Below are positions 37,064-46,090 of a DNA stretch of 63,213 bases, piece after piece. The notes under the pieces are model-generated. The model was not told the origin of the DNA and did no database searches. It was given only the letters and a program-made list of their open reading frames with translations. Origin of the DNA: Bryobacteraceae bacterium (GTDB taxonomy: Bacteria; Acidobacteriota; Terriglobia; Bryobacterales; Bryobacteraceae); the NCBI GenBank assembly GCA_025980665.1, contig JAICXC010000011.1:1-63213 (forward strand). The letters are read 5' to 3'. Made by a program: the position numbers and the translations under genes. Each line of letters starts with the position of its first letter. Position 1 is the first letter of the stretch.

Positions 37064-37101
37064 TTGACTTCGTATGTGTTTGAATGTACGATCAATGCCG
37101 G
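37064..37101 (+). promoter_or_regulatory. Promoter of first A-B-C cassette, shared with the second
   Basis: TTGACT (37064-37069) and TACGAT (37087-37092) are 17 bp apart. The -10 is embedded in GAATGTACGAT and followed by AATGCCGG (37094-37101). The same arrangement with TTGACA occurs at 42367-42405 before the second A gene. Predicted +1 is near 37099, about 47 nt before the start codon. Confidence 0.7.
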
Positions 37102-37145
37102 TATCGTGTACCCGCTTCGCCGCGGGTTAATAGGAGACTGCCAGG

Positions 37146-37988
37146 ATGCGGATTTGTCGGTTGGGAGACTGGTTGTTGGCTGGCACAGCAGGAGCAGCGC
37201 TTTTATCACTAGCCGTGCTTCCGACGCCCGCGCAGGCGCCCGCCGCCTACAAAGCTCCCAAGACCAAGGACGGAAAGCCCAACTTAAATGGCATCTGGCA
37301 GTCCAATAATGAAGCCAATTGGGACATTCGGCCACATGCTGCGTACGCCGGCCCCGTATACACACTGGGAGCTGCCTATTCGACGCCCGCTGGACTGGGA
37401 GTAGTCGAGGGTGGGGAGATTCCCTACAAGCCCGAAGCGGCTGCTAAACAGAAGGAAAACTTCACCAATCGCCTGAAGCTGGATCCTGAGATCAAGTGCT
37501 ACATGGGCGGAGTGCCACGATCCACCTACATGCCGTATCCGTTCCAGATCGTTCAGGGGACCGGTACTATCATGTTCGTGTACGAATTCGCCGGCGCCGT
37601 GCGGGTTATTAATATGGGTGCGCCTACCAAGGCCCCGGCCGATAGCTGGATGGGATGGTCGAACGGGCATTGGGAAGGCGAATCGCTGGTTGTGGACGTC
37701 ACCAGTCTCAACGATCAGACCTGGTTCGACCGTGCCGGGAACTGGCACAGCGATGCCCTGCACGTAATCGAGCGCTACACGGCCATCGGACCGGACGCGT
37801 TACAGTATGAGGCCACCATTGACGATCCGAAAGTGTTCACGCGCCAATGGAAGATGAGCATGCCGCTCTACCGGCGCTTGGAAAAGAACGCGCAGCTTTT
37901 AGAATATAAGTGTGTAGAGTTCGCTGAAGAGGTTCTTTACGGGCACCTTCGGAAGCAGCCGCTGCAAGGAAAAGGAGACAGTAAATGA
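37146..37988 (+). CDS. Exported protein, cassette type A (first copy)
   Basis: The 280-residue protein has a signal peptide (GAALLSLAVLPTPAQA). I do not recognise a characterised family. Landmarks shared with the second A gene are KDGKPNLNGIWQ, VVEGGEIPYKPEA, KCYMGGVPRSTYMPYPFQI, NGHWEGESLVVDVT, WFDRAGNW, IDDPKVFTR and LEYKCVEFAEEVLYG. The mature part has only two cysteines (KCYMGG and YKCVEF), probably a disulfide. The GHWEG core and Cys placement are shared with type B proteins, so A and B are homologous. It overlaps the next gene by ATGA and has its own promoter at 37064. Confidence 0.85.
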   Translation: MRICRLGDWLLAGTAGAALLSLAVLPTPAQAPAAYKAPKTKDGKPNLNGIWQSNNEANWDIRPHAAYAGPVYTLGAAYSTPAGLGVVEGGEIPYKPEAAAKQKENFTNRLKLDPEIKCYMGGVPRSTYMPYPFQIVQGTGTIMFVYEFAGAVRVINMGAPTKAPADSWMGWSNGHWEGESLVVDVTSLNDQTWFDRAGNWHSDALHVIERYTAIGPDALQYEATIDDPKVFTRQWKMSMPLYRRLEKNAQLLEYKCVEFAEEVLYGHLRKQPLQGKGDSK

Positions 37989-39001
37989 GACGACACGTTC
38001 TCTCTTCGCTATTTGCTCTCGTCGCCGCTGGACTACTCGTATCGGCGCCAGTATTTGCGCAGGTGCAGGTGGCCGCGAAGCCCGCTCCGGCCGCGAAGGC
38101 CTGGACCATGCCGCGAACTCCCGATGGGAAACCTGATTTGCAGGGCGTCTATTCGAACGCCACAACGATCCCCGTCGCGCGGCCCGCAAATCTGGGCGCC
38201 AAGGAATTCTACGACAGCGAAGCCGATAAGGCAGCCACCGCAGCGGCAGGCGGCGGCCGGGCCGGGCGAGGAGGAGCAGCGCGTCCCGCCGCCGATCCAG
38301 AGGGCAACGGACTCGCCGTTCACTATGACACCAGCCAGTTCGGCTTGGGTGGACCCACGGTGAAGCGAGCCGCCAGCCTGCGGACGTCGATCATTACGGG
38401 ACCCGAAGGTCGCGTGCCCCCCGTGCTTCCCGAAGTAGCAAAGGCTGCTCAAGAGCGCCGTGCATACCAGCAGGCGCACCAGTGGGACAGCGCTCAAAAT
38501 CGTCCGCTCGCGGAGCGCTGCATCACGTGGGGATTTGAGGGACCGCCGATGATGCCGGTGGGCTACAATTCTACGCTCGAGATCGTTCAGGGCCAGGGTT
38601 ACGTCGCGATTGTTCAGGAAATGATCCATGACACCCGCGTCATCCCGACCGATGGCCGTCCACATGGACCTGCGGAAATCAAACGTTGGATGGGGGATTC
38701 CGTCGGCCATTGGGAAGGCGACACGCTGGTGGTCGAAACCGTGAACTACAATCCTCAGGTGGTAATCCAGGGGCAGCAGGTTAGCGACGCCGCCAAGGTC
38801 ACCGAGCGCTTCACGCGCATCGACCCGAACACCATCCAATACCAATTCACGGTGGACGATCCCAAGACCTGGGTGAAACCATTCTCGGGTGAATACAATA
38901 TGGTTCATATCGATGGCAATCTTTATGAATACGCCTGCCATGAAGGTAACTACGGCATGGCCAATAATCTCAGCGGCGCCCGCGCCACTGAGAAAAAGTA
39001 A
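37985..39001 (+). CDS. Exported protein, cassette type B (first copy)
   Basis: The 338-residue protein has a signal peptide (SSLFALVAAGLLVSAPVFAQ) followed by RTPDGKPDLQGVYSNATTIPVARPANLGAKEF, the usual type B opening. An Ala/Gly/Arg-rich low-complexity insert lies at about residues 80-100. The conserved core comprises ERCITWGFEGPPMMP, EMIHDTRVIPTDGRPH, GHWEGDTLVVETVN, VTERFTRIDPNTIQYQFTVDDP and YEYACHEGNYGM. The only two mature cysteines are in ERCI and YACHEG. The family recurs in Acidobacteria, but no function is known to me. It is coupled to the A gene and followed after 22 bp by the C gene. Confidence 0.85.
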   Translation: MRRHVLSSLFALVAAGLLVSAPVFAQVQVAAKPAPAAKAWTMPRTPDGKPDLQGVYSNATTIPVARPANLGAKEFYDSEADKAATAAAGGGRAGRGGAARPAADPEGNGLAVHYDTSQFGLGGPTVKRAASLRTSIITGPEGRVPPVLPEVAKAAQERRAYQQAHQWDSAQNRPLAERCITWGFEGPPMMPVGYNSTLEIVQGQGYVAIVQEMIHDTRVIPTDGRPHGPAEIKRWMGDSVGHWEGDTLVVETVNYNPQVVIQGQQVSDAAKVTERFTRIDPNTIQYQFTVDDPKTWVKPFSGEYNMVHIDGNLYEYACHEGNYGMANNLSGARATEKK

Positions 39002-39023
39002 AAGGAAGTAAAGGAGCAATCCA

Positions 39024-39437
39024 ATGCGAATCAAGCTGGCTATCGTTCTTGCTGCCGCGGGAATGCTCGTGGCTGTGGCGCCGGTTTGGGCGCACCACGC
39101 TTTCGCCGCGGAATTTAACGAGAAGGCGCCGCTTAAATTGCAAGGCGTCGTCACTAAGTGGGAGTTGGTCAATCCCCACTCGTGGATTCATCTGGATGTG
39201 AAGGGCGCCGACGGCAAGGTGACCAGTTGGATGGTCGAGGGCGGCAGTCCAAATTCGCTGTTCCGCAACGGTTTCACCAAGGAATCGCTGCCGGAAGGGA
39301 CCGAGATCATCGTTGAAGGTTACCAGGCCAAGGACGGAGCCAACCGGGCCGTGGGAGCCAATCTCACCTATGCCAAAGATGGCAAGCGCCTTTTTATGGG
39401 CGGCTCGGCCCCGGGCGCGAACGGCGACGCCAAGTAG
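39024..39437 (+). CDS. Exported DUF6152-like protein, cassette type C (first copy)
   Basis: The 137-residue protein has a signal peptide whose likely cleavage (after VWA) leaves His24-His25 at the new N-terminus (HHAFAAEF). The rest is an OB-like small beta domain with LQGVVTKWELVNPHSWIHLDVKG, WMVEGGSPNSLFRNGF and VEGYQAKDGANRA. His24, His25, His52 and His56 are invariant in all three C copies of this locus. A periplasmic metal- or ligand-binding role is my inference. AAAGGAG precedes the ATG. Confidence 0.88.
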   Translation: MRIKLAIVLAAAGMLVAVAPVWAHHAFAAEFNEKAPLKLQGVVTKWELVNPHSWIHLDVKGADGKVTSWMVEGGSPNSLFRNGFTKESLPEGTEIIVEGYQAKDGANRAVGANLTYAKDGKRLFMGGSAPGANGDAK

Positions 39438-39467
39438 CCTCTCGCTGGTTGCGCGCGTTTGATTTAT

Positions 39468-39496
39468 GGGCGGCCGCCAACGCGGCCGCCTTTCTA
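39468..39496 (+). terminator. Hairpin terminator after first A-B-C cassette
   Basis: GGCGGCCGC (39469-39477) and GCGGCCGCC (39482-39490) form a 9-bp stem with a CAAC loop, followed by TTTCTACGTT. It separates the first A-B-C unit from the C-B unit. The T-run is short. Confidence 0.6.
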
Positions 39497-39561
39497 CGTT
39501 AGGGCCTGCGCCAAACCCACCGAAGGAGTAGGATGGTTCGAAGCGCGAAGGAGAGAATCTG

Positions 39562-39972
39562 ATGCGTAAAAAACTCGCAATGTTAGTGGGAATCGCCGGG
39601 CTGCTGATGGCCGCTGCGCCAATGTGGGCGCATCACGCTTTCGCCGCGGAATTCGATGCGCAAAAGCCGGTGAAGCTGCGGGGCACCGTGGTCAAGGTCG
39701 AGTTCATCAACCCGCACTCCTGGATTCACATCGACGTGAAGGACGCGGACGGAAAGGTTACACGCTGGATGGTGGAAGGCGGCAGCCCCAACGCGTTGTT
39801 CCGCCGCGGCGTCAACAAGGACGCTCTCCCGCAAGGCACCGAGATTATGGTCGACGGGTACCAGGCCAAGGACGGGTCAAATCGAGCAAACGGCAGGGAC
39901 ATTACATTCGCCGACGGTAAGAAGCTTTTCGTGGGCGGCTCGAATCCTGACGAACAGCCCAACGCGAAATGA
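39562..39972 (+). CDS. Exported DUF6152-like protein, cassette type C (second copy)
   Basis: The 136-residue protein closely resembles the C gene at 39024. Its signal peptide ends at MWA, followed by His24-His25 (HHAFAAEFDAQKPVKLRG), NPHSWIHIDVKDADGKVTRWMVEGGSPNALFRRG and DGYQAKDGSNRANGRDI. The -3 residue of the putative cleavage site is Met rather than Val, so cleavage after AFA cannot be excluded. GAAGGAGAG precedes the start. Its stop overlaps the next gene (ATGA), giving the order C-B, the reverse of the other two units. Confidence 0.88.
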   Translation: MRKKLAMLVGIAGLLMAAAPMWAHHAFAAEFDAQKPVKLRGTVVKVEFINPHSWIHIDVKDADGKVTRWMVEGGSPNALFRRGVNKDALPQGTEIMVDGYQAKDGSNRANGRDITFADGKKLFVGGSNPDEQPNAK

Positions 39973-40919
39973 GCGGCCAAGTCATCCCGCTGGCGCTGGT
40001 GATTCTGGCGGGCTCGCTTATCGGACAAAGCAGCACCGCGCAGAGCAAGTACACTCCTCCGCGCACACCTGACGGGCAACCTGATCTGCAGGGCGTGTGG
40101 ACCAACGTCACTATCACTCCACTCGAACGTCCCGCGAATCTCGCCGGCAAGGAATTCTTTAGCCCGGCGGAAGCACGCCAATACGAGAAGGATACCGTTG
40201 ATCGCAACAACGCGGATCGCCGCGACGGTGGCGCGCAGGCCGACCTCAGCCGTGCTTATAACGATGCGTGGTATGACCGCGGGACAAAGGTTGTCGAGAC
40301 GCTACGGACTTCATTGGTGATTGACCCGCTCGACGGCCGCATTCCGCGCAAGGATCAGGGCGCGCCTCTGGTTCCCGCCGGGTTCGGCAGGCCGCCTGAG
40401 GGTCCGGAAGACCGCTCGTTACCCGAGCGCTGCATTCTTTGGCCGACCGCTGGGCCGCCGATGATGCCGAGTTTTTACAATAACAACTATCAGATCGTAC
40501 AAGCGCCCGGATACGTGACCATTCTGGTCGAAATGATCCACGACGCGCGGATTATTCCCGTCGATCCGCGCCCTCATGTGGACTCAAAAATTCGCGAATG
40601 GTTGGGAGACTCGCGCGGGCATTGGGAAGGCAATACGCTGGTGGTCGAGACAACGAACTTCAACGACAAAACCCGCTTCCAACGCTCCAGCCAGAATATG
40701 AAATTAGTCGAGCGTTTCACGCGCACCGCCCCGGACACCGTCATGTATGAGTTCACCGTGGACGATCCGTCGGCATTCACCAAGCCCTGGACAGCACAGA
40801 TCCCGATGAAGAAGACTGAGGGGCCCATCATCGAGTACGCCTGCAATGAAGGCAATTACGCGATGGAAGGCATGCTGGCCGGCGCCCGCGCCGACGAGAA
40901 GAAAGCCGCATCGAAATAG
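39969..40919 (+). CDS. Exported protein, cassette type B (second copy)
   Basis: The 316-residue protein has a signal peptide (IPLALVILAGSLIGQSSTAQ) and TPDGQPDLQGVWTNVTITPLERPANLAGKEFF. Then follow ERCILWPTAGPPMMP, EMIHDARIIPVDPRPH, GHWEGNTLVVETTNFNDKTRF, VERFTRTAPDTVMYEFTVDDP and YACNEGNYAMEGMLAGARADEK. It is the shortest B copy, without the low-complexity inserts of the others. Two mature cysteines sit in the usual places. It is translationally coupled to the C gene before it and lacks an A partner. Confidence 0.86.
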   Translation: MSGQVIPLALVILAGSLIGQSSTAQSKYTPPRTPDGQPDLQGVWTNVTITPLERPANLAGKEFFSPAEARQYEKDTVDRNNADRRDGGAQADLSRAYNDAWYDRGTKVVETLRTSLVIDPLDGRIPRKDQGAPLVPAGFGRPPEGPEDRSLPERCILWPTAGPPMMPSFYNNNYQIVQAPGYVTILVEMIHDARIIPVDPRPHVDSKIREWLGDSRGHWEGNTLVVETTNFNDKTRFQRSSQNMKLVERFTRTAPDTVMYEFTVDDPSAFTKPWTAQIPMKKTEGPIIEYACNEGNYAMEGMLAGARADEKKAASK

Positions 40920-40938
40920 CAAACTTGCCGCGCCGCGC

Positions 40939-40952
40939 TATTCCATGGAATA
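40939..40952. repeat. 14-bp perfect palindrome in the B2/metalloprotease gap
   Basis: TATTCCATGGAATA is a perfect palindrome 20 bp after the B gene stop and about 75 bp before the metalloprotease start. It could be an operator; there is no T-run for a terminator. Confidence 0.4.
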
Positions 40953-41027
40953 ATCGTCTCGTATCAACGTCAGCTCCGCGTCCGGCTGCGCTGATCTTCG
41001 CGACACCAGTCGTGCAGAGAGGTTCCC

Positions 41028-42350
41028 ATGTTGCGATGGACGTGTTTCTTCATTCTGGCAGTTTCCTGTTTCGCTCAGTTTGATCCGGAGGGTGCCCATG
41101 TGGATTTGTATTTTCCACATTTGGCCGACGGTGGTCCCGTCAAAGACCAGTGGCAGACTTCTTTCATTTTCGTTAATCCCCATCCTTCGATCCCGGCTAA
41201 TGTAGTCTTGTCCATGTTCGCGGACGACGGCCAGCGGCTCAGCTTGGACCTGGGTGGCGGAGGAGCCAGCGTTCAAGCAGTTACGGTTCCCCCCTTGGGA
41301 TCGGTTACGTTGCATAGCGCGATTTCATTCGCGACCACGGTCACTGGTTATGCCATTGCGTCGTCGGATCTCCCGCTCCAGTCGACCGTGTTGTTTCGGA
41401 GAATCATGAACGGCGTGCCGCAACAAGAGATCTCCGCCGCCGCGACGCTTCCCTCGACGCAATACGTTTCGCCGGCGACGCGCGAACTGGGCATCGCGAT
41501 TGTGAACATCTACGACGTTCCCAAAAATTTCCTAATTACGGCGTTCGATTCAAATGGAGCCACGGCCGGGACAAGCGTTGTGAATTTAGCAGCGCATGCC
41601 CATTCGTCATTCGATCTCTCCGACCGGATTCCGAGCCTGCCTGCGAGTTTCACCGGTTCCGTGAAAATCACGCCCTCGACTCAGGCCACCGACGAATTCC
41701 TGGCTTGGACCCTCAAGGTCGACGGGCTCGTGACTGCATCGCTTCCGCCGGGTCGCTTGGAGTGGCCGATCTCGCATGCCGACCGGATCACGCTGGTCTA
41801 TCGCAAACTCCTGGCAGCCGCGCCCGCGGCGCTGGCCGGTCTCGACATAAACAACGTGAATCTCAATGCGTTTGGCGTCGCCACTCTGACGATCAGCCCG
41901 GAACAGATCATTAATGCTCTGGGCCGGCCCGGATTCGTGCAGATCGATTTGAGTCTGTCTCAATTGATCAGCGATTCTCCCAGTGAACTTGCGTTTATCG
42001 TGGGGCATGAGTTGGGTCACGTCGCTCAGTTGCAGCACGGGAGTACTCTGACGGCTGCGGATGGCGAGCACGACGCGGATCTTTTCGCGATGACACTTAT
42101 GATCTTGGCCGGATTCGATCCTTACGGCGGCGCCGGAGCATTGGCGAAACTGAGTATGGCGTCGGGCACGCCGAACCTCGTTGCGGCCATGTTTGACGAT
42201 CTCCCGGATCCTCATGGTTCATTCAACGCTCGCCTGAGTTCGATGATGTCCACTCTCGGCCAGGCTTGTGCACAATCCCCAGTTTCGGGGCTGTGCGGCG
42301 CGTATAAAGCCGTGATCCATCCGAACTTCCCGGCGACGGCTCCGTTTTAG
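41028..42350 (+). CDS. Secreted M48-like zinc metalloprotease with N-terminal beta domain
   Basis: The signal peptide (MLRWTCFFILAVSCFA) precedes about 230 residues of beta-rich sequence (YFPHLADGGPVKDQWQTSFIFVNP...), a fold of unknown role also seen in Acidobacterial exported proteins. The C-terminal about 190 residues form the peptidase: H327-ELG-H331 in IVGHELGHVAQ and the third zinc ligand E347 in GEHDADLFAM, as in M48 family members. No membrane span is seen apart from the signal. It sits between the cassette units on the same strand and might process or control the exported A/B/C proteins, which is inference from position. Confidence 0.88.
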   Translation: MLRWTCFFILAVSCFAQFDPEGAHVDLYFPHLADGGPVKDQWQTSFIFVNPHPSIPANVVLSMFADDGQRLSLDLGGGGASVQAVTVPPLGSVTLHSAISFATTVTGYAIASSDLPLQSTVLFRRIMNGVPQQEISAAATLPSTQYVSPATRELGIAIVNIYDVPKNFLITAFDSNGATAGTSVVNLAAHAHSSFDLSDRIPSLPASFTGSVKITPSTQATDEFLAWTLKVDGLVTASLPPGRLEWPISHADRITLVYRKLLAAAPAALAGLDINNVNLNAFGVATLTISPEQIINALGRPGFVQIDLSLSQLISDSPSELAFIVGHELGHVAQLQHGSTLTAADGEHDADLFAMTLMILAGFDPYGGAGALAKLSMASGTPNLVAAMFDDLPDPHGSFNARLSSMMSTLGQACAQSPVSGLCGAYKAVIHPNFPATAPF

Positions 42351-42366
42351 ACCGTACCGTCGATCA

Positions 42367-42405
42367 TTGACACCGGATTGGTTCGAATGTACGATTGAAT
42401 GCCGG
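42367..42405 (+). promoter_or_regulatory. Promoter of second A-B-C cassette
   Basis: TTGACA (42367-42372) and TACGAT (42390-42395) are 17 bp apart. GAATGTACGAT (42385-42395) and AATGCCGG (42398-42405) repeat the block upstream of the first A gene, although surrounding bases differ. Predicted +1 near 42402, about 44 nt before the ATG. Confidence 0.7.
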
Positions 42406-42445
42406 CGGCGCACCCACGCGCCGCAGCGGACATCTCGACTCCAAT

Positions 42446-43294
42446 ATGCGCAAAACGTTCACCTTCCTGTCTACAGCCGCTGCTGCGGTTGTGTGTATCC
42501 CGCTCACACTAACACCCGGCAAAGCCCAGGCTCCAACCACTCCCGCGAAAGCGGTTGCCAAGGCAGTCGGGAAGGGCTCCCGGATGCCCGACGGCAAGCC
42601 CAATCTGAACGGCGTGTGGGAGTACATTGGCACGGCCAACTGGGACATCCAGGATCATTCTCCGGCACCCGGCCCGATGTGGCAACTCGGCGCAATCGGA
42701 GCGATTCCAGCCGGTCAGGGCGTGGTCGAAGGTAATGAAATCCCCTACAAACCGGCGGCGGTAGAACAGAAAAAGAAGAACAAAGCCAACTGGCCGGCCG
42801 ACGATCCGGAAGCCAAGTGCTACATGCCTGGGATCCCCCGCGCGACGTACATGCCGTTCCCTTTCCAGGTCATCCAGTCCAACAAGGACATCCTAATGGC
42901 ATACGAGTATGCCAGCGCTAACCGCCTCATCAATATGGGGAAACCGATCGAAGCCGGATCGGACACATGGATGGGAACTTCGAACGGCCATTGGGAAGGC
43001 GATACCCTGGTCGTGGATGTCACGGGATTGAACGGGCTTAGCTGGTTCGACCGGGCAGGGAACTTTGCTAGCGACAAGCTGCATGTAGTGGAGCGTTTCA
43101 AGCGCCGAAGTAATGACGTCATGGACTATGAGGCGGCCATTGACGACCCGAGCGTGTTTACCAGGCCGTGGAAGATCAGCTTGCCGCTCTACAAGCGGGC
43201 CGAGAAGAACGCGCAGATCTTGGAATTCAAGTGTGTGGAGTTCGCCGAGGAACTGCTGTACGGTAAGTACAAGAAGCAGCCGACTAGCAAGTAA
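42446..43294 (+). CDS. Exported protein, cassette type A (second copy)
   Basis: The 282-residue protein starts at MRKTFTFLSTAAAAVVCIPLTL, a signal peptide; a longer frame from 42395 would begin inside the promoter and is rejected. It shares with the first A protein MPDGKPNLNGVWEY, VVEGNEIPYKPAA, KCYMPGIPRATYMPFPFQV, NGHWEGDTLVVDVTGLNGLSWFDRAGNF, IDDPSVFTRPWK and KNAQILEFKCVEFAEELLYG. Two mature cysteines are in the matching places. It is followed after 11 bp by a B gene with a TAAGGAG ribosome-binding site. Confidence 0.86.
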   Translation: MRKTFTFLSTAAAAVVCIPLTLTPGKAQAPTTPAKAVAKAVGKGSRMPDGKPNLNGVWEYIGTANWDIQDHSPAPGPMWQLGAIGAIPAGQGVVEGNEIPYKPAAVEQKKKNKANWPADDPEAKCYMPGIPRATYMPFPFQVIQSNKDILMAYEYASANRLINMGKPIEAGSDTWMGTSNGHWEGDTLVVDVTGLNGLSWFDRAGNFASDKLHVVERFKRRSNDVMDYEAAIDDPSVFTRPWKISLPLYKRAEKNAQILEFKCVEFAEELLYGKYKKQPTSK

Positions 43295-43305
43295 GGAGAC
43301 CACGA

Positions 43306-44349
43306 ATGAGTCAGCGTGTCCTGACCTCTCTGATAGTGCTCTCAGCGGTGCTGGCTTCGGTATTGCTGGTAACCCTGCCCGTGATCGGCCAGTCTCCCGC
43401 TACGAAATCCAAAAAGTCTACCTACACGCCGCCCAAGCTGCCCTGGGGTGATCCGGACCTCCAGGGCCTGTGGCCTGGAACCGACCTGATCGAGGTGCCT
43501 CTCCAGCGGGATGCTAAGGCGGGCGAACGTACCGAGGTTACACAAGAAGAGTTCGCCCAGCGGCAGGCCAAGGCCGAACGCACTGCCGAGAATGACAAGG
43601 TGGCGTACGTCGCCAAGGATTCGAAGGTCGGGATCAATCCTCCTGGATACTGGCTAGAGCATGGAAAGCCGCAGAAGATCACCTCGTTGGTGGTCGATCC
43701 GCCGAATGGGAGAATCCCCGAGCTGACCCAGCAAGCCAAGCAGAAGGCGGCGCAAGCCAAGCAGGCCAAGCAGGGTCACGGTCCTAACGAAACGTGGGAG
43801 GACCAGAGCCTGTATGACCGCTGCATCTCGCGCGGCGTTATGGGATCCATTCTGCCGGTGATTTACAACAACGGAACGCAGATTGTGCAAGGCCCGGGCT
43901 ACGTCGCGATCCGCTACGAAATGATTCATGAGACCAAGATCATTCCACTTGACGGGCGTCCGCATCCAGGTTCGAACATCAAGTCCTACATGGGCGATTC
44001 GCGCGGTCATTGGGAAGGCAACACGATGGTGATCGAAACCACCAATTTCCTCGGCGACAAGAACGGAATCGGGTTGAATGGCGGAGGCACTCCCCATAGC
44101 GCGGACATGGTGCTTACGGAAAAATGGACCCGCACTGCACCCGACATGATGGAATACACGGCGACCATCAACGATCCAAAAACGTGGGTCAGGCCGTGGA
44201 CCATCCGGATGCCGCTGCGGCTGAATCCGGAATTCCCACTGTATGAGTATGCCTGCCACGAAGGCAACTACGCGATGTTCAACATGCTGAAGGGTGCTCG
44301 GGCGGAAGAGAAGGCCGCGGAGGAAGCGGCTAAGACCGGTAAGAAATAA
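43306..44349 (+). CDS. Exported protein, cassette type B (third copy)
   Basis: The 347-residue protein has a signal peptide (SLIVLSAVLASVLLVTLPVIG). It carries type B landmarks YTPPKLPWGDPDLQGLWPG (a variant of the PDGxPDLQG opening), DRCISRGVMGSILP, EMIHETKIIPLDGRPH, GHWEGNTMVIETTNF, KWTRTAPDMMEYTATINDP and YEYACHEGNYAMFNMLKGARAEEK. A Lys/Ala/Gln-rich insert (QQAKQKAAQAKQAKQGHG) lies at about residues 145-162. Two mature cysteines are kept. It is the most divergent B copy and comes 15 bp before the third C gene. Confidence 0.86.
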   Translation: MSQRVLTSLIVLSAVLASVLLVTLPVIGQSPATKSKKSTYTPPKLPWGDPDLQGLWPGTDLIEVPLQRDAKAGERTEVTQEEFAQRQAKAERTAENDKVAYVAKDSKVGINPPGYWLEHGKPQKITSLVVDPPNGRIPELTQQAKQKAAQAKQAKQGHGPNETWEDQSLYDRCISRGVMGSILPVIYNNGTQIVQGPGYVAIRYEMIHETKIIPLDGRPHPGSNIKSYMGDSRGHWEGNTMVIETTNFLGDKNGIGLNGGGTPHSADMVLTEKWTRTAPDMMEYTATINDPKTWVRPWTIRMPLRLNPEFPLYEYACHEGNYAMFNMLKGARAEEKAAEEAAKTGKK

Positions 44350-44364
44350 ACAGGAGACGATCTC

Positions 44365-44784
44365 ATGCGAAAAATTCTCTCAGTCTCAGCGGCTCTAATA
44401 GGATTGCTGGTGGCCGTGTCGCCGGTGCGCGCCCATCATGCCTTCGCGGCCGAATACGACGGCAAGAAGCAGGTCCACCTTGAGGGAGTGGTCACGCAGA
44501 TGGAATGGATCAACCCCCATACCTGGATCCACATCGACGTTACCGAACCAGACGGTAAGGTAACGAGCTGGATGGTCGAAGGGGGCAGTCCGAATATTCT
44601 CCTGCGCCGCGGCTTCAACAAGGGTTCGCTCGAAAAGGGCCAGAAGATCGCGGTCGATGGCTTCCAGGCCAAGGATGGGTCGAATCGCGCGAATGGCTCG
44701 AACATCACCTATCCCGACGGGAAGAAACTGTTCCTGGGATCATCGGGTACCGGCGCTCCAGCAGATCCTGGTCCAAATAAATAA
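44365..44784 (+). CDS. Exported DUF6152-like protein, cassette type C (third copy)
   Basis: The 139-residue protein has a signal peptide ending VRA and then His24-His25 (HHAFAAEYDGKKQVHLEG), NPHTWIHIDVTEPDGKVTSWMVEGGSPNILLRRGFNKG, VDGFQAKDGSNRANGSNI and a Pro/Gly tail. The four histidines at 24, 25, 52 and 56 are conserved, with one extra His38. ACAGGAGACG precedes the ATG. It is followed by the MmgE/PrpD gene after 16 bp. Confidence 0.88.
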   Translation: MRKILSVSAALIGLLVAVSPVRAHHAFAAEYDGKKQVHLEGVVTQMEWINPHTWIHIDVTEPDGKVTSWMVEGGSPNILLRRGFNKGSLEKGQKIAVDGFQAKDGSNRANGSNITYPDGKKLFLGSSGTGAPADPGPNK

Positions 44785-44800
44785 GCTCAGGTAAGTAGCC

Positions 44801-46090
44801 CTGACACTTTCGCGAAAGCTAGTACGCTCGGCGCGGGGTTATACCGATCCATCGCCCGAAGCGATCGACAAAGTCAAAATCGCGCTGCTGGATTTTCTCT
44901 CCTGCGCCTATGAATCGCGGGATCTTCCTCCCAGCCGGCAGGCAATCGAGGTCGCGGGGCGAGCGGGCGGCGGCCAAGCTTCGGTCATCGGCACACAAGT
45001 GCGTGCGTCGGCCGCGGAGGCCGCATTCGCGAACGCTGTCCTGGGCCATGGACTGGTCCGGGAAGACATGCACACCGGCTCGGTCAGTCACCTGGGAATC
45101 GTCATCTTCCCGACGTTGCTCGCGCTGGCGCAGACGCGAAGAGTGACGGGACCACAGTTTATCCGAGGAGCCGTGTGTGGCTATGAAGTGGGCGCAACCG
45201 TCGGCCGCGCGCTCATGGATCAGGAGACGGTGCAGATCTTCCGGCCTACGGGTATTACGGGACCAGTAGGCGCGGTCGTGGCTGGAAGCGTGATGCTCGG
45301 GTTCAGCGAAGACTCTGGCGTGAGTGCGCTCGGTCTCGCGGCGAATGCAACAGGCGGCTTGAACGAATGGCCGGCTTCGGGCGCCGACGATATGTTCTTT
45401 CACGCAGGATTCGCCGCGCGTAACGCGGTCACCGCGGTGGAACTGGCGGACCTGGGGGCGTTCGGATCGGAAACGGCTTTGGACGGGCCCGCGGGATTAT
45501 TCGCCGCGCTGCGGCGACGCGATCGGATCGAGCGAGTCACGCCCTTCACCGGAGAGCTAGAAATTTTCTCGGTTTATCACAAACCCGCTCCAGCGTGTAA
45601 CTATGCGCAGACGGCCTGCCAAGCCGCGTTGGCAATCGGCGTAGACAGTCAAGAGATAACGAGTGTTCAAGTGAAGTGCTCGGCCGCGGCGATCAATTAT
45701 CCTGGCTGCAACGCGCCGGGTCCGTTCCGGCGGATACTGCAAGCCAAAATGAGCATTCACTTTTGCGTCGCGGCTACGCTGGCAAGGCTGTCCATCGAAG
45801 AGAACAACTATCGCCGCCTTGACGATCTTGAGATCGCGCGGTTGATCGGCGTCACGAAACTGGAAGAAGACCCGGAGTTCACGCAGGCGTATCCAGGAGT
45901 ACAGGGCGCGGAGGTGATCGTCACTTTACGCAATGGCAGAGTGCTGCGAAAGAGAATGTCCGACTTGGTTCCAGCCACGCCCGAACAAATTCATGCGCGA
46001 TTCAGGAACGCAGCGGGCGCGGGGGCAACAGGGATCGAGCAGGCGGTGGACAACTTGGATCAGCTAGAAGATGTCGGGTCGATTCTCTAG
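44801..46090 (+). CDS. MmgE/PrpD-family protein (2-methylcitrate dehydratase-like) with non-standard start
   Basis: The reading frame opens after a TAA at 44792 and contains the family N-terminus: LSRKLVRSARGYTDPSPEAI, then KIALLDFLSCAYESRDLP and ANAVLGHGLVREDMHTGSVSHLG (HGLVREDMH is the active-site region). No ATG, GTG or TTG occurs in frame before GTG 44999, which would cut off 66 conserved residues. The best start is CTG 44801, with AGG about 9 bases before it. The C-terminal lid domain (VQVKCSAAAINYPGCNAPG, SIHFCVAATLA) is intact. It probably dehydrates a hydroxy-polycarboxylate; the substrate is unknown. It is last in the cassette transcript. Confidence 0.85.
   Translation: MTLSRKLVRSARGYTDPSPEAIDKVKIALLDFLSCAYESRDLPPSRQAIEVAGRAGGGQASVIGTQVRASAAEAAFANAVLGHGLVREDMHTGSVSHLGIVIFPTLLALAQTRRVTGPQFIRGAVCGYEVGATVGRALMDQETVQIFRPTGITGPVGAVVAGSVMLGFSEDSGVSALGLAANATGGLNEWPASGADDMFFHAGFAARNAVTAVELADLGAFGSETALDGPAGLFAALRRRDRIERVTPFTGELEIFSVYHKPAPACNYAQTACQAALAIGVDSQEITSVQVKCSAAAINYPGCNAPGPFRRILQAKMSIHFCVAATLARLSIEENNYRRLDDLEIARLIGVTKLEEDPEFTQAYPGVQGAEVIVTLRNGRVLRKRMSDLVPATPEQIHARFRNAAGAGATGIEQAVDNLDQLEDVGSIL

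Follow-up and report, generated by a model that had tools for sequence, protein, structure and literature searches.

Duplicated cassettes of a predicted calycin-barrel family and DUF6152 in an Acidobacteriota genome, and their possible joint system with DUF6644

The window analysed here is the whole stretch of 63,213 nucleotides, which is contig C84 of a Bryobacteraceae genome of 5.04 Mb (214 contigs, 89% complete). It carries eight genes of three types, A, B and C, all on the + strand and arranged as A1-B1-C1, C2-B2, a gene for a protein with a HELGH motif, A2-B3-C3 and a MmgE/PrpD-like reading frame, and according to the ORF coordinates the eight genes, their order and their single strand are real as the first-pass annotation described them. 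In detail, A1 (37146-37988, 280 aa) and B1 (37985-39001, 338 aa) overlap by ATGA, as do C2 (39562-39972, 136 aa) and B2 (39969-40919, 316 aa); C1 (39024-39437, 137 aa) lies between the two pairs, and A2 (42446-43294, 282 aa), B3 (43306-44349, 347 aa) and C3 (44365-44784, 139 aa) follow the HELGH gene, with remaining gaps of 11 to 124 bp through C3. Judged by eye from their signal-peptide-like N-termini, the A, B and C proteins are likely exported. As to the HELGH protein (41028-42350, +), the motif itself is present, but its description as a metalloprotease finds a less clear footing, since the M48-like match scores 20.2 bits, just under the cut-off of 20.3. The MmgE/PrpD-like frame (44999-46090, +) begins 214 bp after C3, and about 68 N-terminal residues of what looks like PrpD are apparently encoded upstream at 44795-44998 in a frame without ATG, GTG or TTG, which suggests either an unusual start codon or a decayed gene. 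Elsewhere on the same contig, a large flagellar gene cluster was recognised by eye at about 7300-30441 of the window.

Two near-identical sigma-70-like, promoter-like elements precede the two A genes, namely TTGACT-N17-TACGAT before A1 (37064-37092, +) and TTGACA-N17-TACGAT before A2 (42367-42395, +). Both are kept in locus L051, the nearest relative, where the second ends in TAGGAT. Position 37064, at which the block had been supposed to begin, thus falls on the -35 box of the first element and is unlikely to be a gene start; moreover, with such an element before each A gene, the block 37064-46090 probably consists of two transcription units. The duplicated promoter was also considered as a genome-wide operator and rejected, as its 11-base core GAATGTACGAT was found only in the window, in L051 and once in L077, in a search that covered the fetched loci (L001-L005 being the window's own stretch).

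The A and B proteins, jointly named X here, align over their full length in all five cases, and the GHWEG motif, two cysteines (C118 and C256 in A1 numbering), the Glu within ER(F/Y) and the DP within DDP do not vary among the five, so that the homology of A and B proposed from GHWEG, the ERF/ERY...DDP block and the cysteines is confirmed. A1 and A2 are 56% identical, and A1 shares 31-34% with the B proteins; in a tree of 187 X, the clade holding A1 and A2 is separate from the B proteins. No credible Pfam or NCBIfam match was obtained for these five or for the 121 diverse X members that include them, none of the 121 matches a lipocalin-type Pfam family at E 0.1, and a PDB sequence search gave nothing below E 0.5. 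Calycins are often too divergent to be recognised by sequence. The AF2 model of B2 (from 40044, pLDDT 89.7) shows an up-and-down beta barrel, and X is thereby predicted to be a barrel of the calycin (lipocalin/FABP-like) kind, a prediction that extends to A1 by its homology to B2. Nine polar residues are conserved over the 121 members (Q153, E163, R169, E223, R224, Y235, D241, E264 and E269 in mature B2), and no histidine reaches 85% conservation among them. Double X domains occur in one frame on contigs C105, C7 and C64 (L044, L020 and L046), in open frames of 531, 564 and 541 residues respectively, and these may be natural double barrels. Besides, a different family of small proteins, exported as it seems and marked by a GTW motif near the N-terminus (GHPLTGTW...), lies beside X at two loci of the own genome, L031:6411-6785 and L033:3687-4136, and it may be a second barrel family.

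The C proteins belong to DUF6152. The resemblance suggested before is borne out by PF19649, which matches C1, C2 and C3 at 108, 117 and 114 bits, far over the cut-off of 27, and matches all 39 aligned C proteins. The AF2 model of C2 (39631-39969) has a barrel of five strands, with a helix placed between the third and the fourth, from which C is predicted to have an OB fold; CusF and CopC are not among the matches listed in the fold comparison, which is no argument against either. Among 62 C proteins, NPH is present in every one, and His-His stands right after Ala at the expected end of the signal peptide in 58, a count that is slightly low because the start of L074:8741-9295 was called too far upstream and an earlier HH was scored, the true pair there also following Ala. 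Over 39 C proteins the His, the NPH, a W and an E are invariant. Reading the end of the signal peptide by eye, mature C likely begins with His-His, which in C2 would be at 39631.

The cassettes of the window are a small part of a much larger set. DUF6152 is found in 47 stretches of this genome, and a profile built from the five X proteins of the window gave 127 matches, which merge into 107 domains on 55 contigs; this count may be low, since the profile scored only the best 150 of 190 candidates and a few ORFs carry two domains. Such a scale of duplication, about a hundred X genes in one 5 Mb genome, was absent from the first-pass annotation. Seven relatives chosen for high copy number have at least 127 to 204 X matches each, some genes giving two, and in the 4.2 Mb genome G252, 20 control stretches of 9 kb avoiding the listed matches still contained 12 X genes. 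As for proximity, an X on the same strand lies no more than 600 bp away from 34 of the 47 C, with 0.9 expected under uniform placement, and three natural C-X fusion proteins exist. As to the idea that homologues scattered singly would speak against a system, 32 of the 107 X have a C in this range and orientation and 75 have none, so many X do stand alone.

Across genomes the two families are patchy in distribution yet joined. In the order (81 genomes), DUF6152 is present in 37 and X in the identical 37, which at the genus level are the same 11 of 35 genera; in the class of G028 (100 genomes), DUF6152 is present in 43, of which 41 have X (G229 and G240 have C only), and X occurs in none of the other 57. 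In a sample of the phylum DUF6152 is found in 6/99 genomes, and in the own genus in 11/11. Fisher values for such tables overstate independence, as the surveyed genomes are related. The order A-B-C is seen at 13 of the 80 named loci. Three of these (L093, L104 and L109) bear a Proteobacteria or Gammaproteobacteria label, which can be wrong because these are metagenome bins, and the rest are Acidobacteriota. The A1/A2 clade has 28 genes in the 80 loci, and a B directly follows 21 of them and precedes 3. Altogether the expectation that A, B and C belong together is supported, by the loci with this order, by the C genes close to X and by the near-perfect co-occurrence of X and C in 181 genomes. 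A further X pair, in L089, is labelled as a Klebsiella pneumoniae MAG and arranged like that of L088 (Gammaproteobacteria), and its bin is probably mislabelled.

A third member, missed by the first-pass annotation, is DUF6644, a small membrane protein distributed like X and C. It lies near X/C genes in 5 of 100 loci and occurs in 36 of the 81 genomes of the order, all inside the 37 that are positive for C and X, only G122 being without it; in the class of G028, 40 of the 43 genomes with C and 1 of the 57 without it carry a DUF6644 over the cut-off, numbers that rise to 42 and 5 when weaker matches are added. Moreover, the copy numbers of C and DUF6644 are correlated over the 37 genomes (Spearman 0.75, with C counted among the matches listed, up to 53). 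In 20 stretches around high-scoring DUF6644 genes, a tandem pair or more is seen in 17; 13 of the stretches carry C and 10 carry X, 9 having both and 6 neither, and in 7 the distance from DUF6644 to C is no more than 500 bp. With D for DUF6644, the gene orders include D-D-X-X-C (L135 and L139), D-X-X-C (L142) and D-D-C (L146 and L148). In the own genome, none is on the window's contig among the matches listed (10 of 16).

Concerning its affinities, seven DUF6644 proteins were scanned, and DUF2214 (best E 4e-5), UPF0093 (0.003) and CopD (0.006) were matched by two proteins each, with best scores below the cut-offs (24 against 34.1, 18.4 against 34.2 and 17.3 against 32.1 bits, respectively); one of the seven, from L035, matches DUF6644 itself at 0.18 only. 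The likeness to CopD and HemJ may be chance and serves as a lead only, since unrelated families reach similar E-values, namely TumE (0.003), DUF2631 (0.004) and NrsF (0.005). In 51 DUF6644 sequences a His and a Lys are conserved at 100% and an Arg at 98%, and about four hydrophobic stretches are seen in the three members examined. UPF0093 we take to be HemJ, presumably with four membrane spans and functional His, Arg and Lys. Perhaps DUF6644 is a distant relative of the DUF2214, CopD and HemJ-type membrane proteins.

The HELGH protease, the PrpD enzyme and a divergent copper ATPase had been tied to the system, and all three are rejected as members: in the 80 named loci, whose flanks extend up to 8 kb with many contigs shorter, their relatives are found in 1 (L060, at some 5 kb from the X gene there), 0 and 1 (L051) respectively, so that the HELGH and PrpD-like genes probably lie outside the system. 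PQQ dehydrogenases were also tried as a fourth member and rejected, for PF01011 is present in 79 of the 81 genomes of the order regardless of X and C and is not clearly enriched near them, even though its 92 matches in the own genome, about 59 distinct places after merging, are a striking expansion for 5 Mb, and a protein cluster with a PQQ representative recurs in 22 of 100 loci (one representative scanned). The 105 operonic neighbours are mixed, with PF13442 in 6 and PF00034 in 6 (cytochromes c), NHL in 4 and PQQ in 3. In G252, no clear enrichment was seen among the 25 families listed each for 63 neighbours and 63 control genes (drawn at random from 112), the control stretches being those which themselves included the X genes mentioned above. 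No substrate could be deduced from the neighbours. In 9 of 100 loci a protein of the outer-membrane barrel type stands near X (one representative scanned). DUF1552 and a planctomycete-type cytochrome (DUF1585-1595) stand side by side near X in L036, L040, L068, L071, L101, L116 and L128; their clusters each appear in 8 of 100 loci (one representative each scanned).

Since X, C and DUF6644 occur almost only together in the 181 genomes, they likely make up one system. We tentatively favour, with a probability of roughly 0.42, a periplasmic system that captures and processes small organic molecules, the main rivals being an enzyme family and copper handling. In the periplasm the X barrels would bind the ligand, a small organic molecule, with A and B possibly acting as a pair; C would dock on X as a common OB-fold partner and may carry a metal via its N-terminal histidine; and the DUF6644 pair would connect both C and X with the inner membrane, for the transfer of electrons or ligand. 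Duplication and divergence of X would then give many specificities per cell, as in other expanded families of binding proteins.

The same observations can be read differently. The X proteins could instead be calycin-fold enzymes with many substrates, C being a common subunit and DUF6644 a redox anchor, which we consider doubtful though it deserves to be kept in sight: the polar set conserved over the 121 X would suit an enzyme as well, but its role may be a structural one, or the binding of a head group common to the ligands, and the operonic neighbours, which include cytochromes c, NHL and PQQ proteins, are not clearly enriched over the control. Less probable still is a copper module in which C binds copper, DUF6644 is its CopD-like membrane partner and X receives, stores or uses the metal. 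It agrees with the His-His after Ala (58/62), the NPH (62/62) and the invariant residues of C, with the closeness of DUF6644 genes to C (no more than 500 bp in 7 of 20 loci) and with the weak matches of DUF6644 to DUF2214, UPF0093 and CopD, although these may be chance as TumE, DUF2631 and NrsF score alike. The divergent copper ATPase beside the cassette in the window and in L051 points the same way, as does the precedent of YcnI, in passages of PMC8424229 a former DUF with an N-terminal histidine brace beside YcnJ. On the other hand, the copper ATPase adjoins X in a single one of the 80 other loci, X has no histidine conserved at 85%, and one metal hardly explains about a hundred X per genome.

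The wider form of that idea, an undescribed copper-dependent periplasmic system in which an OB-fold histidine-brace protein, a CopD/HemJ-like membrane pair and at least about a hundred calycin receptors per cell are combined, seems to us quite improbable; if true, it would mean a vast unnamed repertoire of small-molecule receptors or enzymes in Acidobacteriota, common to some Gammaproteobacteria. Finally, there may be no joint system at all, the three families following a shared life style with their genes selected or moved together. The patchy distribution (DUF6152 in 6/99 of the phylum sample versus 11/11 of the own genus) and the many X standing alone would fit this, and yet we consider it very unlikely: three C-X fusions exist, the A-B-C order persists on contigs assigned to different phyla, and DUF6644 is present in almost the same set of genomes, in contrast to PQQ dehydrogenases with 79/81.

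The folds predicted for X and C are of known kinds. DUF6152, PF19649 and DUF6644 are named in no paper found in the open-licence PMC literature, the papers found there on lipocalins and the periplasm of Acidobacteria seem unrelated, and to our knowledge no system built from X, DUF6152 and DUF6644 has been described. A likely exported, nameless family without a model, linked to two DUFs, is a sizeable gap in what is understood of Acidobacteriota biology. With candidate partners, cassettes (A-B-C and D-D-X-X-C), predicted folds and low-copy genomes that carry a reduced set at hand, its function becomes directly testable.

Several known systems can be compared with this one. With the lipocalins and FABPs (calycins) X shares a predicted eight-strand barrel, a G-x-W motif near its start and a helix at the C terminus, and it differs from them by a long insertion after the first strand, by two conserved cysteines and by having neither a credible Pfam match (121 members) nor a PDB sequence match. 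SusC/SusD-type expansions consist of recurring cassettes of several genes that presumably serve many substrates, and the A-B-C cassettes recur in a like manner; here, however, an outer-membrane barrel lies near X in 9 of 100 loci, and its membership is putative. The TTT/Bug solute-binding proteins, which work with a TctA/TctB permease, show a similar expansion, with 434 TTT proteins given for one Rhodoplanes genome in a passage of PMC5994714. Like them, X is an exported binding family at very high copy number with a genome-wide spread, its ligand binding being putative, but X is unrelated by sequence (no Pfam match to such a family), has a predicted calycin barrel and is partnered by DUF6152 and DUF6644 instead of the permease.

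On the side of C, the comparison is with copper proteins. CusF is a periplasmic copper chaperone with an OB fold, and YcnJ carries a CopD domain. The site of CusF contains a Trp, and the operon of YcnI, whose brace was mentioned above, is common to the putative copper importer YcnJ (both from passages of PMC8424229). As in CopC/CopD and YcnI/YcnJ, C is small and likely exported, probably has a mature N-terminal histidine and is often near a small, possibly CopD-like membrane protein, though the likeness of DUF6644 to CopD is not significant and the metal in C is putative; C also departs from YcnI in its predicted OB fold, as opposed to a cupredoxin fold, and in its tie to the large X family. 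With CusF, finally, C, whose metal ligands are putative, shares the small size, the export, the predicted OB fold and a conserved His and Trp.
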